A stretch of 64,000 nucleotides of DNA. Origin: Anaerolineae bacterium. GTDB taxonomy: Bacteria > Chloroflexota > Anaerolineae > Aggregatilineales > Phototrophicaceae. The first letter of the stretch is position 1, and each line of letters opens with the position of its first letter. The DNA lies in assembly GCA_014879665.1 (NCBI GenBank), contig JACSRP010000114.1, positions 18,486-82,485 on the forward strand, given 5' to 3'. This document shows, one piece after another, positions 57,251 through 61,504 of this stretch. Made by a program: the position numbers and the translations under genes. A model generated the notes under the pieces. That model saw nothing but the letters and a program-made list of their open reading frames with translations, was not told the DNA's origin and did not search any database.

Positions 57251-59077
57251 ATGGAAATTTATCAGCCTGATCGTAAGAAAACTGGGCGTACCCGTGAGCG
57301 GGTTGCGGCGCGCCAGCGTAAACAGATGGCAACACCAATGGCGACGCCTGCCGCCGCGCCGCCAACTGGCACGCCGGTAGATACCCGCCCTGCCATGCAG
57401 CGCAGCGAAGTTTCTAGCGGCTATCAGGAAGCACCGCGCGTTCGCGAGCCAAAACAAACTAGCGGCGCAAAGACATTCGGCATGCTGGCTGGTATCGCTG
57501 CCGGGGCGGCTATGGTTGGCCGTGATACGCTCTGGCATATTCGTTCTAGCAAGCGCGTGGGCTATGGAATCGCCGCCACGATTGCCGGATTTGTCTTAAT
57601 TTATTTGCTGATGCACCTGACGCAGAGCCGGATTTTCCCGAATGTGTGGGCGTTAGGCGTGAACTTAGCTGATATGAACATGGATGAGGCGACGGCAGCC
57701 TTACAGCAGGCGTGGAATCAGCAGATCAGGCTGCAATTGACCGATGAAGATCGAAGCTGGGAAGTGACTCCGGCGGAACTTGGTATGGTGCTGAACAGCC
57801 GGCAAATGGCCGAAGCTGCGCGGGGCGCCGGGCTGGCAGGAATACCATTAGGCGTGAATATCATGCCTGTGGCTGAGATCAATATTTTGACCGCGCAAAC
57901 GATGCTGTTGAACCTGACGCAGGAAACAGATATCGCGCCATATAACGCCGGCTACAGCTGGAGTGGAGATCGCCTCGTAGGGCTTCCCGGCGCGAATGGG
58001 CGTTTTCTGGACGTGGCGATGACGCTGGAACTGCTTCAGGAAGACCTTTCGGAGGCGATCAATCAGCGTGAAATTCAGCTGAATATGAGCATTGCGCGGC
58101 CGGATATTTTAGATCCGTCGCCTTATTTTGATGAGGCGCAGGCGCTGACCAACCGTACGTTCTTCATTCGCGGCTACGATCCGTTTACCAATGAAACGCT
58201 GGTCTGGATGCCTGACCGGGAGATGTTCACCAGCTGGCTTGAAGCTGGCGAGGATACGCTTTCACTGCGCGAGACGCCATTTGCGACTTATCTGGATGAA
58301 CAAACCCGCGCGCTGGAAGAGGCCAATCCGCTGCGCTTCCTTGAGCCGATGGACGCGATCTCTAAAGTGCGCGCTGCTATTGAGCAGGGCAGCTCGGAAG
58401 TTTACGTGCGCGTTCATTATCGCAATTCAATTCACACGGTTGAAGGTGGAGACAGCGGCTATCGTATTGCACGGCGGAACGGCGTGTCTTTCTACCTGTT
58501 ACAGCAGGCGAACCCGAACCGCGATTGGGATCAGATGCTGACGGTTGGCGAGCAGATTGTGGTGCCATCGCGGGATTCGATGATTCCGCTGGAGCCGGTG
58601 CCGAATAAGCGCATCGTCATTGATTTACAAACACAGCAGATGTGGGCGTTTGAGAATGGCAACCTGGTGTTTAGCTGGTTGATTTCTTCAGGGATGGATC
58701 ATGCGCCGACTTCACCGGGAACCTACCAGATTTTGAGCCATGAAGAAGAGGCCATCGGCAGCAGCATTGAATTGTGCGGCGATAACTCTTGCGGCACTTG
58801 GACGATGTACTGGTTCATGGGTATTTATGAAGCGGTGCCGGGGCTGGTGAACGGTTTTCATGGCGCGGTGCTGCTGCCGGGCGGAACCTATCTGGGCGGC
58901 GGCAATGTGGGCAGCCCGTATACCTATGGCTGCATCATGTCTGAGAACAGCAATGCCGAGCAGCTTTATCACTGGGCGGATCAAGGCACGATTGTGGAAA
59001 TTTTATCCAGTGAATATGCGCCCATGAGCGATCTGGGCCGTCAGGCGTTGCAAATGGCGACTGGTCAAGCTGCATAA
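57251..59077 (+). CDS. L,D-transpeptidase (YkuD) with PGBD/VanW-like and LysM domains
   Basis: 608 residues. A cytoplasmic basic, Ala/Pro-rich N-terminus (~1-70); one transmembrane segment (GYGIAATIAGFVLIYLLMHL, ~98-117); peptidoglycan-binding-4/VanW-like repeats (~125-380, each with MNMDEATAALQQAW-type helices); a LysM-like domain (YRIARRNGVSFYLLQQANPNRDWDQMLTVGEQIVVPS, ~398-440); and the YkuD catalytic domain (~455-595) with His in VNGFHGAV and Cys in TYGCIMSENS. It would form 3-3 crosslinks or anchor proteins to peptidoglycan outside the membrane. The usual HGC reads YGC. Confidence 0.92.
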   Translation: MEIYQPDRKKTGRTRERVAARQRKQMATPMATPAAAPPTGTPVDTRPAMQRSEVSSGYQEAPRVREPKQTSGAKTFGMLAGIAAGAAMVGRDTLWHIRSSKRVGYGIAATIAGFVLIYLLMHLTQSRIFPNVWALGVNLADMNMDEATAALQQAWNQQIRLQLTDEDRSWEVTPAELGMVLNSRQMAEAARGAGLAGIPLGVNIMPVAEINILTAQTMLLNLTQETDIAPYNAGYSWSGDRLVGLPGANGRFLDVAMTLELLQEDLSEAINQREIQLNMSIARPDILDPSPYFDEAQALTNRTFFIRGYDPFTNETLVWMPDREMFTSWLEAGEDTLSLRETPFATYLDEQTRALEEANPLRFLEPMDAISKVRAAIEQGSSEVYVRVHYRNSIHTVEGGDSGYRIARRNGVSFYLLQQANPNRDWDQMLTVGEQIVVPSRDSMIPLEPVPNKRIVIDLQTQQMWAFENGNLVFSWLISSGMDHAPTSPGTYQILSHEEEAIGSSIELCGDNSCGTWTMYWFMGIYEAVPGLVNGFHGAVLLPGGTYLGGGNVGSPYTYGCIMSENSNAEQLYHWADQGTIVEILSSEYAPMSDLGRQALQMATGQAA

Positions 59078-59382
59078 ATATCAGCGGGGCAATGGCCGGC
59101 AAAAAACCGGCCTTTACCTGTACATTCTGCACAAATTTAATCCGGCTAACCCGACAGTTCGTTCATTGATATATCGGATATAAACAATTCTAATTTAACT
59201 GTTCGTTAATTATCTACGGCATGTGCGGATCTGTGATTTCAGGTGTACCTCCGCGTATCGCGCAAATTAGACGCCGCTGTAAATTAAACAATTGGCTGTT
59301 GAGCAGGGCGCAGCTAGCATATTGTGAACGTAAGCACTATCGTTAGTTTATTATTTCGCAAGCGAGGCATCGCTTTTCGGGT
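59078..59382. other. Intergenic region before the small RNA gene
   Basis: 305 of the 534 bases between the transpeptidase and the S9 peptidase. It begins with the transpeptidase terminator and ends with a small hairpin AAGCGA-GGCA-TCGCTT (59360-59375). Nothing else was recognised; no ORF with family features. Confidence 0.4.
59094..59115 (+). terminator. Terminator after the L,D-transpeptidase gene
   Basis: GGCCGG pairs with CCGGCC around CAAAAAA, followed by TTT, 17 bp after the stop. Stem is short but GC-rich. Confidence 0.7.
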
Positions 59383-59411
59383 TTGACGCTCCCGCCCCCG
59401 CCTTCTATACT
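59383..59411 (+). promoter_or_regulatory. Promoter of the candidate small RNA
   Basis: TTGACG (-35, 59383-59388), an exact 17-bp spacer, and TATACT (-10, 59406-59411). Five of six bases match consensus in each box. It has no protein gene directly downstream; the next one begins at 59612, past a terminator. Confidence 0.8.
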
Positions 59412-59417
59412 CCCGAT

Positions 59418-59521
59418 TGTAAATTGAACGTGTGAGACACCCTAAAAAGACCTTATTAGAAAAAATTCTTTGGTCTCACACAACTTTAAAAACGCCCCAC
59501 ACCCGTGGGGCGTTTTCTTTT
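59418..59521 (+). ncRNA. Candidate small RNA, ~100 nt, between L,D-transpeptidase and S9 peptidase
   Basis: A compact transcription unit with no ORF: promoter, hairpin, terminator. GTGTGAGAC (59430-59438) pairs with GTCTCACAC (59473-59481); an internal AAAGA/TCTTT (59446-59471) extends the fold across an asymmetric bulge, leaving a loop rich in A (AGAAAAAATT). A single-stranded AACTTTAA leads into the terminator hairpin. The start is estimated as 7 bases after the -10. It is not 6S (too short) and does not resemble SRP RNA or tmRNA. Function is unknown. Confidence 0.65.
59489..59521 (+). terminator. Strong intrinsic terminator of the small RNA
   Basis: AAAACGCCCCAC pairs with GTGGGGCGTTTT (12 bp, perfect) around ACCC, followed by CTTTT. 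It is the best terminator in the window. Confidence 0.92.
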
Positions 59522-59611: not shown

Positions 59612-61504
59612 GTGACGCAGAAGCAGCGTCGTGCCTTTGGCACATGGAGCAGCTTGATTTCGGCGAAGTCGCTGGCCGCTAACAACCGCTTTCTGGATGT
59701 GATGTGGAACCGTGACGGCACAACGCTGGCCTGGCTTGAAAGCCGGAGCGGGCAAACATCGCTGGTGATTAAGCGTGACGGTGACAGCCTACGAGAAATT
59801 ACCGAGCCGGATGAGAGTATTCGCGGGCGGATCGGTTATGGCGGCGGGGAGCTGGCAGTCGGGCAGGACTTTGCGGTTTACAGCGGGCGGGATGGGCGGC
59901 TGTTCCGGCGCTCTCTGGATGGCGGCGGCGCGCGCCCGATTACGCCGGGCTACGGCGCGGCGGCGGCGGCGGCGATATCGCCTGATGGTCGCTGGCTGGT
60001 TTATGTACAGTCTTATGAGGATGCGGATGGCCTGCTGCTGGTGGATGCTGGCGGAGAAATGCTGCCGCGCCGATTGTTCGGGGCTACCGATTTTGTGATG
60101 CAGCCGGTATGGCATCCAGCGGGAACGGCGGCAGCGTTCGTTGGTTGGGATTTTCCGGCGATGCCGTGGGACAGCGCGACGCTGTATCTGGCGCAGGTTG
60201 AGCAAGATCAGTCGGGCGTGCCTACTTTTGGCGAGGTGAAAGCGATTGCTGGCGGGAATGATGTTTCGTGCATGCAGCCGCAGTTTTCGCCGGATGGGCA
60301 AAAGCTGGCTTTTGTGAGCGATGAGGCTGGTTGGTGGCAGCTATATGTGTTGGCGCTGGCAAGCGGTGAAATAACACAGATCACCGGTGACGCGGCGGAA
60401 TACGGGCAGCCGGCATGGGTGCAGGGTCAGCGGATGTATGGGTGGCATGATAACCAGACAATTTATGCGCTGCGCAGCGAGGAGTCGCACACCACACTGC
60501 GGCGCATTGATGTGAACAGCCATGAGAATATGACGGTTAAAGGGTTGGGGGCTTATACGCATCTGCGGCAGCTAAGCCTTACACCGGGGAGCCAGATTGC
60601 GCTGCTGGCCTCATCATCGGTGATTCCTGAACGAGTCATTACGTTTGATCCGGTCAGCGGAGAGATGATGGTTCAGCGGCGGAGTGCCACTGAAAACCAG
60701 CCGCCAGAAACGCTGTCTCGCGCGCAAAACGTGACATGGACGGATGAAGATGGCGGGGAAGCTCACGGGCTGTTCTATGCGCCGGCAAGCATGCGCTTTG
60801 AGGGAATCGGGCTGCCGCCGCTGATCGTGTATGTGCATGGCGGGCCAACCTCGCATGTGCGGGCGGATTACCACCCTGAGGCGCAGTTTTACGCGACGCG
60901 GGGCTATGCTGTGCTGTATGTGAACCATCGCGGCGGCACAGGCTACGGCAAGGCTTACAAGGATATGCATCGCGGCGCGTGGGGGGTGTGGGATGTGCGC
61001 GATGCGGCTTCTGGCGCGGAATATCTGGCGGCGGCGGGGCTGGTTGACCCGGAAAAGCGAGTGATCTATGGCGGCAGCGCGGGCGGTTACACGGTGCTGC
61101 AATCGCTGGTGGATATGCCGGGCTTCTGGAGCGCGGGGGTGTGCCTGTACGGGGTTAGCAATCAATTCACACTGGTGAGCGCGTCTGAGTTCAAATTTGA
61201 GTCGCAGTACAGCTATACGCTGCTCGGTCATTTGCCGGAAGCGGCTGCGGTTTACCGGGATCGCTCGCCAGTATTTCACGCTGATAAGATCGTTGATCCG
61301 GTGATCCTGTTTCAAGGCGATGAAGATAACGTCGTGCCGCAGGCGCAGAGCGATATGATTGTGGAGGTGTTGAAGGCGCGCGGCGTCCCCTATGAATATC
61401 ATGTATACGTGGGAGAGGGGCATGGTTGGCGCAAGCCGGATACGATCGAGCATTTTTATCGGGCGGCGCTGGGCTTCATGGAAACTTATGTGCTCTATCG
61501 CTAG
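59612..61504 (+). CDS. S9 family serine peptidase (prolyl oligopeptidase / acylaminoacyl peptidase type)
   Basis: 630 residues from GTG 59612, with AGGAGAAGGAA upstream. The N-terminal ~370 residues form a TolB/WD40-like propeller (PQFSPDGQKLAFVSDEAGWWQLYV). The alpha/beta-hydrolase domain has Ser in YGGSAGGYTVLQSL, Asp in LFQGDEDNVVP and His in GEGHGWRKPD, with IVYVHGGPTSHV as oxyanion segment. No signal peptide is seen, so it is likely a cytoplasmic oligopeptidase. Codon choice in this and the next gene looks more G-rich (gcg, ggg, ctg) than upstream genes; not measured. Confidence 0.95.
   Translation: MTQKQRRAFGTWSSLISAKSLAANNRFLDVMWNRDGTTLAWLESRSGQTSLVIKRDGDSLREITEPDESIRGRIGYGGGELAVGQDFAVYSGRDGRLFRRSLDGGGARPITPGYGAAAAAAISPDGRWLVYVQSYEDADGLLLVDAGGEMLPRRLFGATDFVMQPVWHPAGTAAAFVGWDFPAMPWDSATLYLAQVEQDQSGVPTFGEVKAIAGGNDVSCMQPQFSPDGQKLAFVSDEAGWWQLYVLALASGEITQITGDAAEYGQPAWVQGQRMYGWHDNQTIYALRSEESHTTLRRIDVNSHENMTVKGLGAYTHLRQLSLTPGSQIALLASSSVIPERVITFDPVSGEMMVQRRSATENQPPETLSRAQNVTWTDEDGGEAHGLFYAPASMRFEGIGLPPLIVYVHGGPTSHVRADYHPEAQFYATRGYAVLYVNHRGGTGYGKAYKDMHRGAWGVWDVRDAASGAEYLAAAGLVDPEKRVIYGGSAGGYTVLQSLVDMPGFWSAGVCLYGVSNQFTLVSASEFKFESQYSYTLLGHLPEAAAVYRDRSPVFHADKIVDPVILFQGDEDNVVPQAQSDMIVEVLKARGVPYEYHVYVGEGHGWRKPDTIEHFYRAALGFMETYVLYR

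Follow-up and report, generated by a model that had tools for sequence, protein, structure and literature searches.

A structured small-RNA gene family with a conserved promoter and terminator in one family of Chloroflexota

The locus described here lies in a 64,000-nucleotide stretch of an Anaerolineae bacterium contig (the window, to which all plain coordinates refer), between two plus-strand genes. Upstream is the gene for a YkuD L,D-transpeptidase with LysM and PG_binding_4 domains (57251–59077; Pfam PF03734, PF12229 and PF01476), which has a hairpin of its own at its 3′ side (59094–59112), and downstream that for an S9 peptidase of the prolyl-oligopeptidase family (59612–61504; PF00326 and PF07676). 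The intergenic region holds a sigma-70-type promoter on the plus strand (59383–59411, 10 of 12 matches), made up of TTGACG (59383–59388), a 17-bp spacer and TATACT (59406–59411), with a predicted transcription start near 59418; it is the sole plus-strand promoter-like site within 2 kb. It is followed on the same strand by the two arms of a conserved 9-bp stem, GTGTGAGAC (59430–59438) and GTCTCACAC (59473–59481), which enclose an AU-rich loop of 34 nt (59439–59472), and by an intrinsic terminator, AAAACGCCCCAC-ACCC-GTGGGGCGTTTT then CTTTT (59489–59521), with a 12-bp stem, a 4-nt loop and a T-rich tail. Promoter, stem and terminator hairpin are present exactly as given in a preliminary description of this DNA, as is the distance of 90 bp from the terminator to the start of the S9 gene. 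The predicted fold of the transcript has a free energy of −35 kcal/mol, compared with −15.8 ± 3 kcal/mol for dinucleotide shuffles (z = −6.4).

Within the genus, promoter, stem and terminator are alike in 13 of 15 genomes, in intergenic regions adjoining YkuD or S9. A first covariance model was built from ten sequences of the genus aligned by sequence alone, leaving out those of three genomes (G001, G007 and G004) that the aligner had shifted; the model nevertheless recovered all three. When 98 genomes from the same taxonomic family were searched with it, 69 gave a hit at E ≤ 0.001; among the weaker hits many are probably background, and the E-values of the models built in this analysis are rough. 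The final model, built from 44 sequences and with a score of at least 42 bits taken to define a copy, places the RNA in about 48 genomes, mostly draft assemblies like the other genomes compared, from at least 17 of the 24 genera of a single Chloroflexota family. Chloroflexi bacterium OLB15 is the nearest named relative found. Outside the family there was no convincing match, the best reaching 38 bits in other genomes of the order and, with the first model, 37 bits in a sample of the class, both at background level. Matches of 28–38 bits outside the family were rejected as copies, since their scores overlap those of antisense matches at true loci and of evident false positives. The match in G005 (L144, 1494–1608) resembles a tRNA followed by a terminator and is a false positive.

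Across the 44 sequences, pairing in the stem reaches 97.4% and both sides have changed at all nine pairs. The covariation score is 0.559, whereas shuffles give 0.237 and sliding the stem along the alignment yields no more than 0.19; on every measure all 500 shuffles stay below what was observed, and the slid versions fall far below it. These figures should be read knowing that the alignment was fitted to the structure and hence favours pairing, and that the shuffles leave shared ancestry uncorrected. In the ten members of the first model, aligned by sequence alone, the stem is 100% paired with six doubly changed pairs. The terminator helix is likewise conserved across the 44 sequences (97.2% paired, compensatory changes at 7 of 10 modelled pairs). 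Judged by their recurrence in about 48 related genomes and by the compensatory changes at all nine stem pairs, the predicted stem, promoter and terminator are far beyond chance. The preliminary description had read the locus as a stand-alone, lineage-specific regulatory or structural RNA, and the stem covariation together with the conserved promoter and terminator supports that reading. The search of relatives by covariance model that it proposed has now found the compensating changes, and a check for the loss of stem pairs and promoter in close relatives, which it named as evidence to the contrary, did not contradict the reading.

The promoter is conserved along with the transcribed region, a site scoring at least 10 of 12 preceding 40 of the 48 copies compared with 1.5% of shuffles. 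Further upstream, two operator-like sequences recur. The hexamer CGATAA, found in 37 of 48 upstream regions where 5.9 would be expected, is part of a palindrome, GGAATTAnCGATAATTCC, whose centre lies either 40–43 bp (16 copies) or 51–55 bp (14 copies) before the −35 hexamer and, among these 30 good matches, never between 43 and 51 bp, so that the two spacings are one helical turn apart. A spacing that shifts by one helix turn is typical of an activator that needs to face RNA polymerase. The window's own version, AGCACTATCGTTAGTTTA (59333–59350, centred 41 bp before the −35), is weak, matching the family consensus at 11 of 18 positions. A second box, usually 194–233 bp before the −35, contains TTGTGC, which is present upstream of 41 of the 48 copies where chance would give 8.5; its family consensus is TTGTGCAnnTTGTACGAA and in the window it reads on the minus strand at 59117–59134. 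We take these upstream sites to be candidate sites, probably for an activator. The regulator was sought through other operator sites in the genomes. The exact palindrome, found in nine genomes of g13, a different genus of this family, is confined there to the RNA locus, with no other exact site; the second box has few other genomic sites, and the regulator was not found by that route. A TTGTGCAGCTTGTACGAA box without mismatch is also found upstream of genes resembling rpsL, rpsG and fusA in one genome (L197, 1500–1518; G010:C190), so this box may serve other promoters.

The conserved region is unlikely to encode a peptide. No ATG occurs in the leader plus stem-loop of 24 of the 48 copies and the frames of the other 24 share nothing beyond close relatives, which led us to reject a conserved peptide and agrees with the earlier observation that no ORF lies here. 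At the gathering score, Rfam reports only a tRNA in the window and no family at the RNA locus. The locus represents a predicted small-RNA gene family that is absent from Rfam.

The placement between a YkuD-type and an S9 peptidase gene, suggested from the window alone, recurs in 25 of the 48 copies; the other 23 do not have the full pair (YkuD only in 5, S9 only in 11, neither in 7), although some missing neighbours may reflect contig ends. Three genomes (G002, G012 and G013) keep the RNA and have no close S9 orthologue, and in G003 the RNA stands at another place, on contig L143, together with its upstream box. Conversely, at least eight genomes from four other genus-level groups carry the YkuD–S9 pair without a recognisable RNA between them, the two genes being only about 50 bp apart in two of these. 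As the RNA is kept where either neighbour is missing and the gene pair is kept without the RNA, comparison of the genomes indicates that it is tied to neither YkuD nor S9 and stands as a gene in its own right, not simply as a peptidase leader.

Several other features of these neighbourhoods were observed. On L143 the G003 RNA lies near a gene for a LacI-like sugar-binding protein, and the sequence upstream of S9 in the same genome (L073, G003:C11, 500–900) resembles an inserted element. A record titled Pleurocapsa minor GSE-CHR-MK-17-07R, the name of a cyanobacterium, carries a Chloroflexota YkuD gene (L116; G011:C10), and the name looks wrong. Several genomes of the g17 group have another short promoter-plus-terminator unit, in which TTGACA is followed by GATAGATTTATTGAAAGCAAATTTATTG and a terminator (L145 of G133, 1440–1595). 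This unit, which has no GC stem, is found at the same place in L146, L149 and L150, lies near genes resembling M20-type peptidases and may be another small RNA.

The loop is AU-rich and, across the family, about 62% unpaired in predicted ensembles. No common inner fold was found across the family: the inner AAAGA/TCTTT stem of the preliminary description is predicted for the window sequence, but has no counterpart as a conserved helix in the relatives. What recurs instead is a pair of A-run/U-run modules about 14 nt apart, seen as a peak in the match of the loop to itself at an offset of 14 (334, compared with 223 ± 11 for shuffles; z = 10, a value that overstates the independent evidence because the sequences are related). 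The loop conserves a pattern of purines and pyrimidines and not an exact sequence, a behaviour compatible with protein binding and with pairing alike. When loops are matched to S9 start regions, the true combinations (−8.5 kcal/mol) barely surpass swapped ones (−8.0 kcal/mol). Self-pairing of the loop is somewhat stronger than that between species (−7.2 and −5.7 kcal/mol), base composition being uncontrolled in this comparison.

Taken together, we consider the best reading to be an Hfq-independent, trans-acting small RNA with a dedicated regulator that acts through its AU-rich loop, and give this a probability of roughly 55%. Comparison between genomes establishes the gene, its structure, its promoter and terminator and its independence from the neighbours; we infer its transcription, the role of the upstream sites as activator sites and the trans action through the loop. 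RNA polymerase would start near 59418 at the RNA's own promoter and continue as far as the intrinsic terminator. In the resulting transcript, about 100 nt long, the GC-rich 9-bp stem would hold open a loop of about 33 nt with its two A-run/U-run modules. The palindrome lies about 78 or 88 bp upstream of the start point, and a regulator bound there, on one face of the DNA, would probably activate the promoter. Hfq (PF17209) was detected in none of the 15 genomes of the genus, which speaks against an Hfq-dependent small RNA, and the RNA would most likely act in trans through the loop and without Hfq, by base-pairing with AU-rich mRNA segments, for example those where translation is initiated. 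The step held least firmly in this explanation is that the loop pairs with RNA rather than binding a protein.

The loop could instead serve a protein-binding RNA, its two modules binding and titrating an AU-binding protein, for example of the cold-shock or KH-domain type, in the manner of CsrB or 6S RNA. The two similar modules, a pattern kept while the sequence drifts, the mostly single-stranded loop on a rigid closing stem and a genus in which Hfq was not detected would all suit such a role. Against this, the partner protein is only putative, and the modules are of low complexity, so that part of their similarity may come from base composition and common ancestry; we regard this alternative as tentative and the less probable use of the loop. 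A more elaborate version, which we hold to be doubtful, sees a dedicated regulatory circuit whose chief or sole product is the RNA and in which the regulator has perhaps one palindromic site per genome and the paired AU modules trap a protein. If true, this would be a new type of 6S/CsrB-like titration device in bacteria without detected Hfq.

Other explanations deny the RNA a trans role or a gene of its own. It could be a cis-acting leader of S9, a transcription attenuator or riboswitch-like element whose terminator is controlled to set read-through. S9 is directly downstream in 36 of 48 copies, and in about 11 genomes its start codon is 15–35 nt from the terminator, which leaves no room for a promoter and makes some read-through or cis role likely in those genomes. 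The association is not constant, however, since 12 copies have no S9 downstream, S9 is kept without a recognisable RNA in the genomes mentioned above and the gene that follows the RNA in G045 is convergent. Moreover, the stem and terminator form together in the predicted fold, where no competing structure was seen, and about 10 of the 21 genomes with a long gap have a −10-like hexamer 13–15 nt beyond the RNA, a weakly significant excess. As an account of the family this reading is unlikely; a cis role for S9 in some lineages is possible and does not explain the family. Finally, the locus might hold no gene of its own, being part of the YkuD transcript at its 3′ end, or a coincidence of promoter, hairpin and terminator. 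The position downstream of YkuD, seen in 30 of 48 copies, would be in keeping with the former, yet YkuD is followed by its own hairpin, 18 copies have no adjoining YkuD, and neither stem covariation nor promoter conservation would be anticipated from such an arrangement, which makes it very improbable.

Bacteria of the Anaerolineae and Chloroflexota are abundant in sludge and sediment, and a search of one open-access library gave no paper on their regulatory small RNAs. A family with strong covariation and a conserved, apparently regulated promoter in about 48 species offers a handle on how small RNAs act in the Chloroflexota, and on which regulator controls this one.

Comparison with known RNAs brings out what is particular to the family. 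At relaxed thresholds the best Rfam match is to Burkholderia ncS54 (RF02871), rejected at 26.2 bits against a gathering score of 43; the likeness is in the terminator hairpin, which makes up most of the match. Chloroflexi-1 RNA (RF01698), another structured-RNA candidate of this phylum, is listed solely for Chloroflexus aggregans (PMC2864571), and there is no Rfam match to it at the locus. With 6S RNA (RF00013) the new RNA shares a stand-alone gene and a large open loop closed by a stem, although 6S RNA is about 180 nt long compared with about 100 nt here, and with bacterial small SRP RNA (RF00169) it shares a length of about 100 nt. Neither matches at the locus and both are located elsewhere in the genus, 6S RNA in 13 of 15 genomes (in G000 at C123) and SRP RNA in 14 of 15 (in G000 at C231), bearing out the earlier view that the RNA is neither of them. 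Firmicute small RNAs such as SR1 and RoxS are intrinsically terminated and trans-acting, and work without Hfq. While the loop of the new RNA is AU-rich rather than C-rich, and the locus reaches no Rfam family at threshold, it resembles these Hfq-independent RNAs in having its own, apparently regulated promoter, in its size of about 100 nt, in the intrinsic terminator that follows the stem-loop and in being present as a single copy.
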